A stretch of 64,000 nt of DNA, from the NCBI RefSeq assembly GCF_001419985.1, contig NZ_LJAL01000006.1:62001-126000 (forward strand), in the 5' to 3' direction. The notes below the pieces were generated by a model, which ran no database searches, was not told the DNA's origin, and saw nothing but the letters and a program-made list of their open reading frames with translations. This DNA comes from Loktanella sp. 5RATIMAR09 (GTDB lineage Bacteria > Pseudomonadota > Alphaproteobacteria > Rhodobacterales > Rhodobacteraceae). Positions 54,977 to 64,000 of the stretch are shown here, piece after piece (the stretch's first letter is position 1; every line of letters starts with the position of its first letter). The translations under genes and the position numbers were made by a program.

Positions 54977-55606
<630 letters not shown>

Positions 55607-56137
55607 ATTGAACAAATCATTGGTCCTTCTTAACCCGCACGCGATACACAAACGGTTGGCATCCGGCATTCCAGTGGCCTGCTGATCGCTTGGGGATATG
55701 TTCCAATTAAGACGGAATATTGATAATTTTCTGCAAATTGTGAATCCATAAGCAGAGGGACTATCTGAAAAACACAGCGACGAGATGCCATCCCGTTGCG
55801 CGGCGGCTGAACTTTGGGCGCGCCTGAACGCTCTTTTGCTGGCGGAACTTGACCTTCCAGCGGATTATGAGTGCTGACCGCAGCGCGCGGCGTTCTTGCA
55901 TGATCTTGGCAAACTGACGGTGGGCAACCATCCGGCAGCATATGAAAAATAGTCAGACATGGCGAGAAAGGGCCAAGGCCTTTCGCGACATTGCACCCGT
56001 TGCACCCGTTGCCGGGGCGCACCCTGAACGTGAGGGTGGAAAGGGATATCGCAAGGGATTGGGGGGCATGAAATCGAGCAGCCTTCGCGCCCGCGTTACC
56101 GCAAACCCATTCACATGATCTGCCGAACTCTCTGACG
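55607..56137. other. Long non-coding gap between rplT and the Gly/Asn-repeat gene
   Basis: No convincing gene. One 58-codon frame on the plus strand (55942-56118, MKNSQTWRERAKAF...) has a short repeat APVAPVAG, but lacks a ribosome binding site. The bases near 55700-55740 are AT-rich and may hold the promoter of the pilin-like gene. Confidence 0.4.
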
Positions 56138-58744: not shown

Positions 58745-59482
58745 ATGACACATGACCCTTACGAAATCATTGGTGAGAACCGCACCGGACGCTGGCTGAT
58801 TGCCTGTGATCACGCCACAAATACCGTGCCCGATTGGGTGCACGGTGGTGACCTGGGCCTGCCTGAGGCGGATATGCAGCGCCATATCGCCTATGATATC
58901 GGCGCCGCAGGTGTGACACGCAAATTGGCCGAAGCGCTGGACAGCCCTGCCATTCTGTCACGGTTTTCACGATTGGTATGCGACCCCAACAGGGGCGAGG
59001 ATGACCCCACGATCATGATGCGCCTTTATGATGGCACGATTATCCCGGGCAACCGCAACGCCGATGACGCCGAAAAAGAAGAACGCCTGCAGCGGCTTTA
59101 CCGGCCCTATCACGCAGCCTACGCGGATTTGGCCAATAAGATCGATCACCCGGTGATCTGTGCCGTGCATAGTTTCACGCCGCGCCTGCAGGGACGGCAT
59201 CCGCGCCCTTGGGAGATTGGCGTGCTCTATGCCGATGACGCACGGCTAGCCACGCCCTTCATGGCTGCCTGCCGCGCGGCAGGGTGGTGTACGGGCGACA
59301 ACCAGCCCTATGCAGGCCACCTGCCAGGTGACGCTGTAGACAGGCATGCCTTGCAGCATGGCCGCCCGAATGTGTTGATTGAGTTACGTCAGGACCTGAT
59401 TGCGGATGAAGCAGGACAAACCCTTTGGGCAAACCGGCTGGCCCCTATATTATCACACGTATTGGCCCAATCAGGCCTTTGA
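58745..59482 (+). CDS. N-formylglutamate amidohydrolase
   Basis: A 245-residue zinc-peptidase-like hydrolase of the FGase family. LIACDHATNTVPDW, HIAYDIGAAGVTR, FSRLVCDPNRGEDDPTIM, ICAVHSFTPRLQG and LIELRQDLIADEAG form the conserved core. FGases release formate from N-formylglutamate in histidine breakdown, though in many roseobacters the gene lacks hut neighbours, as here. The next two genes follow within 12 and 9 bases. Confidence 0.92.
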   Translation: MTHDPYEIIGENRTGRWLIACDHATNTVPDWVHGGDLGLPEADMQRHIAYDIGAAGVTRKLAEALDSPAILSRFSRLVCDPNRGEDDPTIMMRLYDGTIIPGNRNADDAEKEERLQRLYRPYHAAYADLANKIDHPVICAVHSFTPRLQGRHPRPWEIGVLYADDARLATPFMAACRAAGWCTGDNQPYAGHLPGDAVDRHALQHGRPNVLIELRQDLIADEAGQTLWANRLAPILSHVLAQSGL

Positions 59483-59494
59483 GAGGACAAGACC

Positions 59495-59788
59495 ATGGAC
59501 GACCAGACACGTATCGAGATCGAAGCCGCCGCCTTTCGCAGGTTGCAAAAGCATCTGATGGAAGACCGCACCGACGCGCAAAACATCGACATGATGAATT
59601 TGGCAGGATTCTGCCGGAATTGTCTGGCACGCTGGTATCAGGAAGCCGCGAACGAGCGCGGAATCCCCATGACCAAGGACGAAGGCCGCGAAGCGTTTTA
59701 CGGGATGACGATGGCCGAATGGAAAGCGAACTACCAGACCGAAGCAAGCGCGGCGGCCAAAGAGGCCTTCAAGGACAGCCACGGATAG
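59495..59788 (+). CDS. DUF1244 domain-containing protein
   Basis: A 97-residue soluble protein that matches DUF1244: AAAFRRLQKHLMEDRTDAQN, then MMNLAGFCRNCLARWYQEAA with a conserved Cys-x-x-Cys pair and MTKDEGREAFYGMTMAEWKA. The family is widespread in Proteobacteria with no assigned function. It forms an operon with the FGase upstream and TerB downstream. Confidence 0.92.
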   Translation: MDDQTRIEIEAAAFRRLQKHLMEDRTDAQNIDMMNLAGFCRNCLARWYQEAANERGIPMTKDEGREAFYGMTMAEWKANYQTEASAAAKEAFKDSHG

Positions 59789-59797
59789 GAAACCAAC

Positions 59798-60241
59798 ATG
59801 CTCGAACGCCTGACCGCATTCTTTGGCAATCCCACCGGCTATCACACGCCTTTGCCCGAAGCCGACGCAAGCCATGCTATGGGCGCGTTACTGGTGCGTG
59901 CCGCAAAGGCGGATCACACCTATCTGGTCGAAGAGATCGCGATGATCGACAAGATCTTGGCACAGCGCCACGGGATTAATCCGGTAGCTGCCGCCAAAAT
60001 GCGCGCTGAATGCGAGCTGCTGGAACGCAAAATTCCCAAAACCACCGATATTGCCGCAATCCTCGAAACCGCAATCGGCACAACGGAAAAGGAAGCGACA
60101 CTGCTGGCACTCTGGCAGGTCGTCTATGCGGACGGGATTACGCATGATGAAGAAGACGAGGTGCTGCACCAGATCGAAGCCGTGTTCGGTGTGGGGCCCG
60201 AGCGCGCGAAGGAGTTGCAGGCGCAAGCCCAGCACAGCTAG
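59798..60241 (+). CDS. TerB family protein
   Basis: A 147-residue helical protein of the TerB-like superfamily. AMGALLVRAAKADHTYLVEEIAMIDKIL and ATLLALWQVVYADGITHDEEDEVLHQIEAVFGV show the repeated acidic (metal-binding) helix pairs. Single-domain TerB homologues of this type are common outside tellurite-resistance loci. It ends the three-gene unit. Confidence 0.9.
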   Translation: MLERLTAFFGNPTGYHTPLPEADASHAMGALLVRAAKADHTYLVEEIAMIDKILAQRHGINPVAAAKMRAECELLERKIPKTTDIAAILETAIGTTEKEATLLALWQVVYADGITHDEEDEVLHQIEAVFGVGPERAKELQAQAQHS

Positions 60242-60559: not shown

Positions 60560-61768
60560 ATGCAGAACGCATCTATTTCCCATTGGCCTACACTCAAAAA
60601 GTGGCTCATTGCGAGTTCCTTTCTTTGCGTAGCGGCACCCGTCATCGCAGAAACCGTCACCCTGACCGCAATCAACGGGTCGACGACGGTGTCTGGTGAA
60701 CTTCTCGATTTCACCGGCGACACGTATATCATCGATTCCACCCTTGGCCCTTTGCGCGTTCAGGCCAGTTCCGTCGAGTGCAATGGCCCTGGCTGCCCCG
60801 GCGCCGAACTGAGCGCCGATGCGATTGTGGAATGGGATGTGTCCTTGTGGGGCCAGCGACGGGCCTTTACCGAACATATCGAAAAGATTGCTGAACTCGT
60901 TGACCAAAAAACCGACGGGCGGTTCACTCTGAACCTGTCTTATGGTGGCCTTGCTCCGGCGCGCGAAAACCTTGAAGGCATTCAGGCCGGGACGTTCGAG
61001 ATGGCGCAATTCTGTTCAGGATATCACCCCGAGAAAAACCCGACGATTACGGTGCTGGAGCTGCCTTTCCTCGGCGTCTCCACACTTGATCAGGAAGTCG
61101 CGGCATCCTTTGCCGTCTATGAACATCCCGCGACAGTCGCGGACATGGCGCGCTGGAATGCCACCATTCTGATGCCATCACCGCAACCACAGAACAATAT
61201 CCTTGGGGTCGGGTTCCCGCCAACCTCTCTGGCGTCATTCAACGGCATGCAAATTCGCGCCACCGGTGGCATCGGACAGGCGGTCGAGGCATTGGGCGCG
61301 GTCGCGACTGTCATTCCGGCACCACAGGTCGCAGAGGCGCTGCGTGATGGCACTGTATCAGCCGTGGCCTTTGCCCCCCATGCCCACATGGCATTCGGGA
61401 CGCTTGATAGCGGTGTCTGGTGGACAACAAACCTGAACCCCGGAACAACGAACTGCCCTGTTGTTGTGAACACGCCCGCGCTTGAACGGCTGCCCTCAGC
61501 GCACCGTGTGGCGCTCTTGTCATCCGTCGGTGAGGCGATTGATTACTACGTGGACAACTACAACGGTGCCACAATGGACGCGTGGGGCCCCGCCCTTGCG
61601 GAACGTGACATCGTTGAAATCACAATCAATGAAGAGATCACAACGGCGATCAACCGTGAAGTTGCCGGACCTGCGGCAGCGGCGTGGATTGCAGAACAAT
61701 CCGCCGCCGGTTTTCCCGCGCAAGAACTCTACGACCTTGTGAAAGAAGTGGTCGCCAATACAAACTGA
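60560..61768 (+). CDS. TRAP transporter substrate-binding protein (DctP family) with N-terminal extra domain
   Basis: A 402-residue periplasmic protein. Signal peptide to about residue 31 (CVAAPVIAET). Residues 32-80 form a small beta domain (VTLTAINGSTTVSGELLDFTG, then YIIDSTLGPLRVQASSVECNGPGCPG) not present in ordinary DctP proteins. The DctP domain follows (WGQRRAFTEHIEKIAELVDQKTDGRFTL and GMQIRATGGIGQAVEALGAV; RATG holds the carboxylate-binding Arg). No membrane subunits are nearby. A terminator follows. Confidence 0.88.
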   Translation: MQNASISHWPTLKKWLIASSFLCVAAPVIAETVTLTAINGSTTVSGELLDFTGDTYIIDSTLGPLRVQASSVECNGPGCPGAELSADAIVEWDVSLWGQRRAFTEHIEKIAELVDQKTDGRFTLNLSYGGLAPARENLEGIQAGTFEMAQFCSGYHPEKNPTITVLELPFLGVSTLDQEVAASFAVYEHPATVADMARWNATILMPSPQPQNNILGVGFPPTSLASFNGMQIRATGGIGQAVEALGAVATVIPAPQVAEALRDGTVSAVAFAPHAHMAFGTLDSGVWWTTNLNPGTTNCPVVVNTPALERLPSAHRVALLSSVGEAIDYYVDNYNGATMDAWGPALAERDIVEITINEEITTAINREVAGPAAAAWIAEQSAAGFPAQELYDLVKEVVANTN

Positions 61769-61897: not shown

Positions 61898-62764
61898 TCA
61901 GACAGCCACCTTCCGGCTTTCTTCCAGATAGATCTCGCGCAAACGCGTCGCCACAGGCCCTGGCGTTCCTGCGCCAACGGAGACACCATCCACCTCGACC
62001 ACCGGCATGACAAAGGTGCTGGCGGATGTGATAAACGCCTCATCTGCATCCTGCGCTTCGGCAATCGTAAAGCTACGCTCTTCGACCTTCATCTGCGCCT
62101 CACGTGCGAAGCGCAGCACAGCGGCACGCGTGATCCCGTGCAGAATCTCATTGCCCAGATGCCGTGTGATGATCGTATTGTTCTTGATAATGTAAGCGTT
62201 GTTCGAGGTCCCCTCGGTCACAGCCCCGTCTTCCACCATCCATGCGTCATCGACGCCGGCAGCCTTGGCCATCATCTTGCCCATTGACGGAAACAAAAGC
62301 TGCACAGTCTTGATATCGCGGCGCGCCCAGCGCTGGTCCGCGATCGAGATCACCTTGATCCCCTTTTTGGCAGCGGGGCTATCGGCCAGCCCGGGTTTGT
62401 TCTGGGTAAACAGGACAACGGTTGGTTTTGTCGTCTCAGGGTCGGGAAAGACGAAATCACGGTCATTGGGGGCACCACGGGTGATCTGCAGATAGATCAT
62501 GCCCTCTTCAATGCCGTTGAGACGGACCAGTTCGCGGTGGACCTCCAAAAGATCCGGCAGAACTTCGGGGTGCGGCATATCCAGCTCGTTCAATGACCGT
62601 TCCAGCCGTTTGGCGTGGCCTGCAAAATCAATCAGCTTGCCGTCCAGCACAGAGGTGACTTCATACACCCCGTCAGCCATCAGAAACCCGCGATCAAAAA
62701 TCGAGACTTTCGCTTCGTTTTCCGGCAGATATGCGCCGTTGACATAGACTGTCCGCATGGTCAT
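61898..62764 (-). CDS. dat: D-amino-acid transaminase (class IV)
   Basis: A 288-residue PLP enzyme of fold type IV. VYVNGAYLPENEAKVSIFDRGFLMADGVYE is typical of D-amino-acid transaminases (split: VNGAYLPENEA, FDRGFLMADGVYE). QLLFPSMGKMMAKAAGVDD holds the likely PLP Lys; VEDGAVTEGTSNNAYI and TRHLGNEILHGITRAAV bind the cofactor phosphate. The ATG at 62764 overlaps the stop of dgcA (ATGA), indicating coupling. Context favours a role in D-amino-acid catabolism rather than wall synthesis. Confidence 0.9.
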   Translation of the reverse strand: MTMRTVYVNGAYLPENEAKVSIFDRGFLMADGVYEVTSVLDGKLIDFAGHAKRLERSLNELDMPHPEVLPDLLEVHRELVRLNGIEEGMIYLQITRGAPNDRDFVFPDPETTKPTVVLFTQNKPGLADSPAAKKGIKVISIADQRWARRDIKTVQLLFPSMGKMMAKAAGVDDAWMVEDGAVTEGTSNNAYIIKNNTIITRHLGNEILHGITRAAVLRFAREAQMKVEERSFTIAEAQDADEAFITSASTFVMPVVEVDGVSVGAGTPGPVATRLREIYLEESRKVAV

Positions 62765-63720
62765 CCCCAAAGTGCTATGGTGGGCGGGTGCACGCCCAGG
62801 TGATCGAATTTCAAAGGTTCATCACGGTCTTCGGCCAATAAGAGCGGCCCGTCAAGGTCGGTAAAGGCCACGCCCTGTGCAAGGATCGTGGCAGGCGCCA
62901 TTGCAAGAGACGAGCCGACCATGCAGCCAACCATCACGCCATAGCCCTCAGCCTGTGCCTGACGTTTCAATGCCAGCGCCTCGGTCAGACCACCGGTCTT
63001 GTCCAGCTTGATGTTCACCATATCGTATTTGCCGCGCAACGCAGGCAGGCTGGCACGGTCATGACAGCTTTCATCCGCGCAAACAGGCAACGGGCGCGCG
63101 ATCTCGGCCAGCATGTCATCCATACCTGCAGGCAACGGCTGTTCCACCATTTTCACACCAAGGCGGATCAGATGCGGCGCGAGATCGGCATAGACGTCCG
63201 CCGTCCAACCCTCGTTCGCGTCAACGATAATATCGGCGTCCGGCGCGCCCCGGCGGACCGCTTCAAGGCGCGCCATATCATCGGGCGTACCAAGCTTGAT
63301 CTTGAGCAGAGGGCGGGACGCATGTTTGACGGCTTGCCGTTGCATCGCCTCGGGCGTGTCAAGCGAGAGCGTATAGGCGGTGATTTCCGAGGTGGGCACC
63401 GGCAGGCCCAACAGGTCCCATACACGTTTGCCTGCGCGCTTCGCCGCGTGATCCCAGAACGCACAATCAAGCGCATTGCGCGCGGCCCCTGCAGGCAAGG
63501 CATCAGGCAAATCGGGCCATGCACCCGTGAAACCCTCGATCTGCGCTGTCACACTCTCCAGTGTTTCGCCGTAGCGCGCGTAGGGCACGCATTCGCCCAT
63601 GCCTCGCGCGCCATCACCTTCAACGGAAACGGTCAGGACCTGCGCCTCGGTCCGTGACCCGCGACTGATCGTAAAGACCTCTGCCAATTTGAACACATCG
63701 CGCGTCACGCCGACTTTCAT
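62761..63720 (-). CDS. dgcA: Enolase-superfamily dipeptide epimerase / N-acetyl-D-glutamate racemase DgcA
   Basis: A 319-residue muconate-lactonising-enzyme-subgroup protein. Base Lys residues are in LLKIKLGTP; metal ligands are in IIVDANEGW, MVEQPLP and CADESCHD; the second Lys is in NIKLDKTGG. This is the L-Ala-D/L-Glu epimerase family. Its direct neighbour is a DUF1611 gene, the pairing reported as dgcN-dgcA, where DgcA racemises N-acetyl-D-glutamate. Context makes that function more likely than dipeptide epimerisation. Confidence 0.88.
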   Translation of the reverse strand: MKVGVTRDVFKLAEVFTISRGSRTEAQVLTVSVEGDGARGMGECVPYARYGETLESVTAQIEGFTGAWPDLPDALPAGAARNALDCAFWDHAAKRAGKRVWDLLGLPVPTSEITAYTLSLDTPEAMQRQAVKHASRPLLKIKLGTPDDMARLEAVRRGAPDADIIVDANEGWTADVYADLAPHLIRLGVKMVEQPLPAGMDDMLAEIARPLPVCADESCHDRASLPALRGKYDMVNIKLDKTGGLTEALALKRQAQAEGYGVMVGCMVGSSLAMAPATILAQGVAFTDLDGPLLLAEDRDEPLKFDHLGVHPPTIALWG

Positions 63721-63728
63721 AATGCCCT

Positions 63729-63761
63729 CATCATCTTGCCAAAAATACTCCCGCCGGAGGC
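63729..63761 (+). repeat. 33-bp intercistronic repeat, copy 2
   Basis: Same design as 13502-13534: CATCATCTTGCC, 7 different bases (AAAAATA), CTCCCGCCGGAGGC. It lies between the dgcN stop and the dgcA start, and here it is transcribed from the opposite strand relative to copy 1. Confidence 0.8.
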
Positions 63762-63762
63762 A

Positions 63763-64000
63763 TCAAAGTTCTGCCAGCGCGTCCACCAGACGGGCAGCGC
63801 CCTGACGGTAGGTGTCAACGGTCGGCAGGCCCATGCGGTCTTCGACCCCGGCCATATAGGCAAGCGCCTCTTCCTCGGACAGATGCTGGGTGTTGATCGA
63901 CACGCCGACGACCTGACAGGCAGGGTTCGCCACGCGCGCGATGGGCAGCGCGGTGTCGCGCAGTGTTTCAAGGCTTGGCAGATCATAATCCGGCAATCCG
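63763..64000 (-). CDS. dgcN: DUF1611 protein DgcN (D-glutamate N-acetyltransferase), C-terminal part only
   Basis: The last 79 codons of a DUF1611 protein that continues beyond the window. GLPDYDLPSLETLRD, then ARVANPACQVVGVSINTQHLSEEEA and MGLPTVDTYRQGAARLVDAL are typical of the C-terminal P-loop-like domain of this family. DUF1611 with an enolase-superfamily partner is the marker of the DgcN/DgcA D-glutamate pathway described in marine Proteobacteria and haloarchaea. The N-terminus and start codon are not visible. Confidence 0.82.
   Translation of the reverse strand, partial: GLPDYDLPSLETLRDTALPIARVANPACQVVGVSINTQHLSEEEALAYMAGVEDRMGLPTVDTYRQGAARLVDALAEL

Follow-up and report, generated by a model that had tools for sequence, protein, structure and literature searches.

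Gene content of the locus

The window analyzed here, the whole of a 64,000-nucleotide stretch of DNA from Loktanella sp. 5RATIMAR09 (contig NZ_LJAL01000006.1, G000:C6:62001-126000; source genome of 3.7 Mb in 43 contigs), ends in three genes, dgcN, dgcA and dat, which lie in tandem on the minus strand, are transcribed in that order and all have open frames. The 3' part of dgcN occupies 63763..64000 of the window (minus strand; the last 78 codons, the stop and one base of the preceding codon) and is separated by 42 bases from dgcA (62761..63720, minus strand, 319 aa), which encodes a predicted N-acetyl-D-glutamate racemase of the enolase superfamily. This is followed by dat (61898..62758, minus strand, 286 aa from its ATG), encoding a predicted class IV D-amino-acid transaminase; dat would start either at an in-frame ATG at 62764, which shares bases with the dgcA stop (ATGA), or at an ATG 2 bases past that stop. 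A preliminary description had recognized three consecutive minus-strand genes for a DUF1611 protein, an epimerase and a transaminase, and had named reading past position 64000 as a check. The adjoining sequence (L002) contains a whole and intact dgcN of 333 aa (L002:4763-5764, minus strand) that runs 764 bases past the window end and encodes both DUF1611 domains and the P-loop; this bears on one of the two refuting outcomes named in the preliminary description, a DUF1611 gene without its acetyltransferase features. Among named genomes, the DgcN of Loktanella sp. PT4BL is the closest (97%), and most of the next matches come from Yoonia and Loktanella species.

Curated models identify all three proteins

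We find that DgcN scores 547.5 bits against the NCBIfam equivalog NF041892 (cut-off 480; residues 5-330 of 333), that both DUF1611 domains (PF17396 and PF07755, Pfam) are present, and that the P-loop GTDCSVGKM is intact, with G145, T146, D147, C148, S149, G151, K152 and M153 invariant in 30 relatives. Among solved structures the closest is 7xrj, which bears the title N-acetyltransferase DgcN-25328 and shows 76% identity over residues 1-332. These data support the assignment of the DUF1611 gene as a predicted DgcN, a D-glutamate N-acetyltransferase. The founding study reportedly placed DgcN in the GNAT superfamily; a Pfam scan at an E value of 0.001 gave P-loop and Rossmann-like domains and no GNAT domain. 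A structure model built on 30 close sequences (mean predicted local distance difference test score, pLDDT, 70.7; residues 174-238 mostly <50), and thus weak in its middle, matches 7xrj, 2obn and 2g0t along its whole length, while its residues 1-123 match NAD- and CoA-binding Rossmann domains, e.g., succinyl-CoA synthetase alpha (2nu7_A; Z 9.6, root-mean-square deviation 3.5, 110 aligned). No GNAT structure appears among the 50 matches listed in either search with this model, an absence that proves nothing.

DgcA scores 483.4 bits against its own equivalog, NF042940 (cut-off 400), and K140/K142, K238, D167, E193 and D216, which we take to be the catalytic and metal-ligand residues, are conserved in all 96 aligned family rows, supporting a predicted N-acetyl-D-glutamate racemase. 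The pairing with DgcN, also part of the preliminary description, is thus upheld by curated cut-offs on both sides. For Dat, queried from one codon after the ATG (without the Met), the score against the D-amino-acid transaminase subfamily model NF005209/PRK06680 is 370.3 bits (cut-off 320), PF01063 is matched, and the lysine aligned with the catalytic lysine is conserved in 103/103 rows. The third gene is therefore supported, as had been proposed, as a putative D-amino-acid transaminase of the PRK06680 subfamily.

The transaminase is the usual partner of dgcNA in the family

To place the locus, we use a sample of 149 Rhodobacteraceae genomes, one per genus and 132 of good quality, in which dgcN and dgcA were called by NCBIfam cut-offs and dat at an E value of 1e-60. 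dgcN exceeds its cut-off in 113 genomes (114 with G108, where it is split by a contig end), dgcA in 126 (G114 is also counted, on a 352.5-bit partial match), and dat is found in 142, including 131 of the 132 good genomes. All three genes co-occur in 114 genomes, 13 lack only dgcN, and 15 have dat alone; dgcN never occurs without dgcA. In 110 of the 114, dgcA starts ≤300 bases after dgcN (exceptions: G005, G102 and G114, where they lie on different contigs, and G062, where they are 64 kb apart). Likewise in 110 of 114, dat trails dgcA by no more than 3.2 kb, in the same orientation and on one contig, and in 86 by ≤300 bases (exceptions to the 3.2-kb limit: G018, G054, G090 and G137). The set of named loci comprises the 80 best of 536 found; all 80 have dgcN-dgcA, dat comes next in 76, and in the remaining four the contig breaks off first.

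This family-wide linkage confirms that the three-gene arrangement is real and exceeds chance. The transaminase is the usual family partner of dgcNA, not a local addition; the preliminary view of an "added" enzyme gives way here, while its proposal that this enzyme funnels other D-amino acids into D-glutamate is plausible and probably right in part. The operon itself will not surprise a specialist, since its D-glutamate part is already known and the locus is a further instance of it.

A probable route from D-amino acids through D-glutamate

We consider it likely that the operon serves D-amino-acid catabolism centered on D-glutamate. Dat would transfer the amino group of D-alanine, and probably of other D-amino acids, to 2-oxoglutarate to give D-glutamate, which DgcN would acetylate with acetyl-CoA; DgcA would then remove and re-add the alpha proton of N-acetyl-D-glutamate to yield N-acetyl-L-glutamate, from which an ArgE-type deacetylase encoded elsewhere may free L-glutamate, unless the arginine pathway takes the product directly. 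Gene identities, operon-like structure, conservation and the conserved active-site residues are direct observations; from them we infer the substrates, the direction of Dat and the last step. D-Glutamate and D-alanine derive mainly from bacterial cell walls and form part of slowly degraded marine organic matter, and the cluster couples a D-alanine entry step to the D-glutamate pathway in most sampled genera of a large marine family. Presumably the weight of metagenomic dgcN lies in the Rhodobacterales.

Support for glutamate as the substrate also comes from outside the family, in 40 dgcN loci taken for their diversity from two overlapping sets of matching genomes, 94 from the class search and 45 from the phylum search. 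dgcA is present in 36 of these and dat in three (L172, L186 and L191). A sodium/glutamate symporter cluster (Glt_symporter; representative L188 tested) occurs in three loci, as does a sodium:dicarboxylate symporter cluster (SDF; L163 and L169 tested); these glutamate-type symporters, which occur in a minority of loci, support glutamate independently of model names. A LysR cluster is found in 11/40 (one representative, L184, tested), L191 carries a TRAP DctM gene and L187 a dipeptide-type ABC ATPase, and other neighbors tested, e.g., PGK, YchF and SDR, have no bearing on D-glutamate. Apparent dgcN-dgcA fusions in L169 and L171 are artefacts of open reading frame choice, as separate dgcN frames of 349 aa (G204) and 376 aa (G208) exist.

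Several observations weigh against this catabolic reading. Dat scores 222.1 bits against the DAT equivalog TIGR01121, short of its cut-off of 277.45. Transporter genes next to the operon are limited to amtB, for ammonium, and that of an orphan TRAP solute-binding protein. The 15 genomes with dat alone indicate that dat has a role of its own, and dgcA stands without dgcN (no match at an E value of 0.001) in 13. Finally, 20 neighborhoods were picked for lacking dgcN (12) or for carrying an insert (8), and are hence not a random sample; a deacetylase gene inside the operon was sought among the dgcA-dat inserts of the latter eight (L045-L052) and rejected, as these comprise several unrelated families (NUDIX, DUF3800, DUF6544, metallophosphoesterase, SDR, esterase-like and one unassigned cluster in two loci; one member per cluster tested).

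Dat as a probable source of D-glutamate for the cell wall

Since dat is more widespread than dgcNA and is present in genomes that lack MurI, feeding D-glutamate breakdown is probably not its sole job. TRANSAMINASE is more than an add-on: in this family Dat is probably also a source of D-glutamate for the cell wall, and this is the more interesting point than the funnel. MurI has no match (E value of 0.001) in six of the 132 good genomes (G001, G015, G083, G090, G101 and G136), all of which have dat and alanine racemase above cut-off, and in four of which (G001, G015, G083 and G101) dat lies right behind dgcNA; MurI is present in G085, the only good genome that lacks dat. Most simply, Dat would make wall D-glutamate in the MurI-less genomes. 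As dat is nearly universal, all six would be expected to carry it anyway, and what gives the observation weight is that no other source is known for them. In this regard, G090 has no PF01177 match whatsoever, and the other five hold 16 such proteins, eight of which (L053, L055, L056, L057, L063, L065, L068 and L072) were scanned against NCBIfam. None of these eight reaches the glutamate racemase cut-off: L056 (G136) scores 25.4 bits against TIGR00067 (cut-off 146.65), L072 (G101) 62.7 bits against the amino acid racemase model TIGR00035 (cut-off 93.1), and L068 (G015) is EutA-like.

A stronger version of this idea holds that Dat chiefly supplies peptidoglycan D-glutamate from D-alanine and 2-oxoglutarate, with DgcNA as a one-way drain, which would make the operon a D-glutamate balance module instead of a nutrient pathway. 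The MurI-less genomes, the position of dat in four of them, and the retention of MurI in G085 all fit this proposal. However, a MurI match is present in 126 of the 132 good genomes, the window's own among them (G000:C2; 137.5 bits, slightly under the TIGR00067 cut-off), so that Dat is not needed for the wall in most; the presence of dat in 131 of 132 predicts by itself its presence in the six; and the additional PF01177 proteins in five of them may provide other routes to D-glutamate. We therefore regard wall supply as the chief function of Dat as a serious candidate, but one that falls short of probable. The MurI-less genomes offer a direct genetic route to the question of whether the transaminase makes a wall precursor.

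DgcA and the dipeptide epimerases

That the epimerase is not of the dipeptide type, as had been suggested, is borne out insofar as DgcA passes its own cut-off and, at 315.9 bits, stays under that of the L-Ala-D/L-Glu epimerase equivalog PRK15129 (343). Its residues leave room for activity on dipeptides, and one may ask if DgcA acts, or also acts, as an L-Ala-D/L-Glu epimerase on murein peptides. The E. coli L-Ala-D/L-Glu epimerase (1jpd) is its second-best solved relative (E 3.8e-84), and a DxD near the C-terminus (DLDGP, 288-292), presumably a mark of dipeptide binding, is present in 96/96 family rows. The same DxD occurs in every row printed for two other groups (11 of 24 and 9 of 14 rows printed), and does not discriminate because the gammaproteobacterial-type DgcAs printed carry it too. 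All family groups retain the residues that mark the L-Ala-D/L-Glu epimerase type, and the KxK lysines are missing in one of 14 rows from outside the alphaproteobacteria; a dipeptide role is thus compatible with the retained residues, and sequence does not decide between the substrates.

The genomes that keep dgcA without dgcN bear on the same question. Eleven of the 13 are ≥94% complete, dat follows dgcA within 300 bases in 12 (in G008 they lie on different contigs), and eight of the 12 loci fetched hold the HpcH/HpaI-type neighbor seen in relatives, with dgcN missing between. In a quick tree of 70 rows, including every second named locus, the dgcN-less state needs at least six changes; resolution of this tree is poor (stars on 8 of 67 inner branches), so that repeated loss of dgcN is suggested, not shown. 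Such persistence of dgcA beside dat would suit a dipeptide substrate, but every one of the 13 DgcAs lies above the 400-bit cut-off (by at least 38 bits in 12 and by 15 in G008), and none of the 114 genomes counted as dgcN-positive lacks dgcA. We consider an epimerase role on murein peptides rather unlikely, and favor N-acetyl-D-glutamate as the substrate. With similar reserve, one could combine these patterns into a two-way D-glutamate hub, in which Dat would be the wall source that replaces MurI in at least six genera, DgcNA an irreversible drain, and a lone DgcA would act on wall-derived L-Ala-D-Glu, the various gene patterns being one system at successive stages of reduction; we offer this as a tentative scheme.

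Fate of N-acetyl-L-glutamate

N-Acetyl-L-glutamate is the entry metabolite of the arginine pathway, and either hydrolysis to L-glutamate or use in arginine synthesis is possible from the predicted gene content. The genome has nine Peptidase_M20 matches, two of them above the acetylornithine deacetylase cut-off of TIGR01892 (297.7): the ArgE-type candidates L076 (379.8 bits) and L077 (403.4 bits). There is one ArgJ. We think it improbable that the product of DgcA mainly primes arginine synthesis, as ArgJ and the lack of a conserved deacetylase gene among the eight inserts would allow, given two ArgE-type deacetylases above cut-off and given that a small biosynthetic need alone would not permit the growth on D-glutamate shown by a relative (PMC11747546).

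Genetic surroundings and regulation

Upstream of dgcN in the window's genome lie amtB and then glnK, encoding a PII signaling protein; no LysR/dgcR-type or other transcription regulator gene adjoins the window operon, although a dgcR-type regulator had been anticipated. Of the 80 named loci, 15 share the arrangement seen in the window's genome, with amtB immediately ahead of dgcN in the same orientation, and 14 of these 15 also have glnK (L083 is cut short). An HpcH/HpaI-type gene (family by Pfam), which we take to be malyl-CoA-lyase-like, lies upstream on the opposite strand in 59 of the 80, and six loci have neither neighbor.

Between amtB and dgcN there is a terminator-like hairpin (L002 5978-5955; 10 pairs, 9 of them G-C), visible by eye in 13 of 15 aligned relatives (not in L100 and L109), from which it follows that dgcN probably has its own promoter; read-through from amtB was considered and is disfavored by the same hairpin. 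The scan of this region gives 14 terminator-like sites against 6.7 expected, no sigma-70-like site on the minus strand, and one on the plus strand against 1.7 expected. The 8-mers TCGAAGAA or CGCAAGAA occur ≤180 bases upstream of dgcN in 36/80 loci, compared to 99/4311 control windows from the same loci and 8/616 of similar G+C, a contrast that is partly there by construction, since these 80 sequences also supplied the motif and related loci do not count as independent samples. These sites often lie 100 to 145 bases before dgcN (L002:5765-6000, i.e., 765-1000 past the window end, and L082-L161), and likely represent a putative operator.

On the other side, the orphan TRAP-type solute-binding protein gene (DctP, PF03480; window 60560-61768, plus strand) is convergent with dat and encodes approximately 100 extra N-terminal residues; it has no match in the 80 named loci (four of which end before dat), the 97% relative included. 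Beyond it lie genes for an N-formylglutamate amidohydrolase-like protein (FGase), DUF1244 and TerB (58745-60241, plus strand); many relatives likewise have FGase, DUF1244 and pyk next to their dat locus. A 230-aa frame at window 54977-55669 (minus strand) appears by eye pilin-like in its first half, with a long Gly-Asn repeat tail.

Related gene pairs in other genomes

Paralogous pairs of an enolase-superfamily and a DUF1611 gene, in the order epimerase then DUF1611, occur in eight loci (L217-L224; G024, G037, G020, G090, G109, G064, G126 and G136). Their neighbors, with one representative per cluster tested, include a class III aminotransferase and BKACE (5/8), GNAT (4/8), a histone-deacetylase-fold protein (4/8) and ABC transporter genes (3/8), and the arrangement resembles a putative acetylate-racemize-deacetylate cassette that would serve a different amino acid. 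In a third group, a DUF1611 gene encoding approximately 400 aa is directly followed by an alanine-racemase-like gene (PF01168; representative L225) in 5/5 loci fetched (L225-L229; G001, G101, G015, G075 and G035). In L230:4354-8414 (G050:C8), genes for a DgcA-like protein (35%), an M55 D-aminopeptidase and a DgcN-like protein (48%) lie in a row on one strand.

Comparison with known systems

The DgcN-DgcA pathway was reportedly described by Yu et al. in 2023 (ISME J). The window enzymes resemble it in exceeding both equivalog cut-offs, in their adjacency and order, and in the 76% identity of DgcN to DgcN-25328 (7xrj); they differ in having dat as a third gene and no adjacent LysR/DgcR-type regulator, and in the glnK-amtB genes found upstream in the window clade. 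In the titles, abstract starts and passages covered by our literature search, we find no description of a dgcNA operon with dat, of its family-wide spread or of MurI-less Rhodobacteraceae, which is not proof of absence. Passages of one study place dgcN of Tara Oceans and polar metagenomes mostly in the alphaproteobacteria, and treat DAT as able to replace one of Alr and glutamate racemase (PMC12363236). For Shewanella WP2, an excerpt proposes DgcN-DgcA as the main D-glutamate route on the basis of transcript levels (PMC10845958).

Compared to E. coli YcjG (1jpd), the window DgcA shares the family, the acid/base lysines, the metal ligands and the DLD motif, but falls under the PRK15129 cut-off and its gene is paired with dgcN. 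The Bacillus-type D-amino acid aminotransferases (1daa, 3lqs and 9pxs) align with Dat in the catalytic lysine region, the VYE motif and the arginine after the TRG loop, positions presumed to be functionally important; the histidine two residues past that arginine in 1daa and 3lqs is phenylalanine in Dat, which does not reach TIGR01121.

A physiological parallel is the Rhodobacteraceae strain LCG007, annotated with a D-amino acid transaminase, a D-glutamate N-acetyltransferase and an N-acetyl-D-glutamate racemase, which grows on D-Glu, D-Ala, D-Ser, D-Phe and D-Lys, according to passages of the published study (PMC11747546). A three-gene operon is not stated in these passages, which propose other uses for the transaminase (D-Phe and D-Lys), but LCG007 belongs to the same family as the window organism, has all three functions annotated, and grows on both D-glutamate and D-alanine (PMC11747546).

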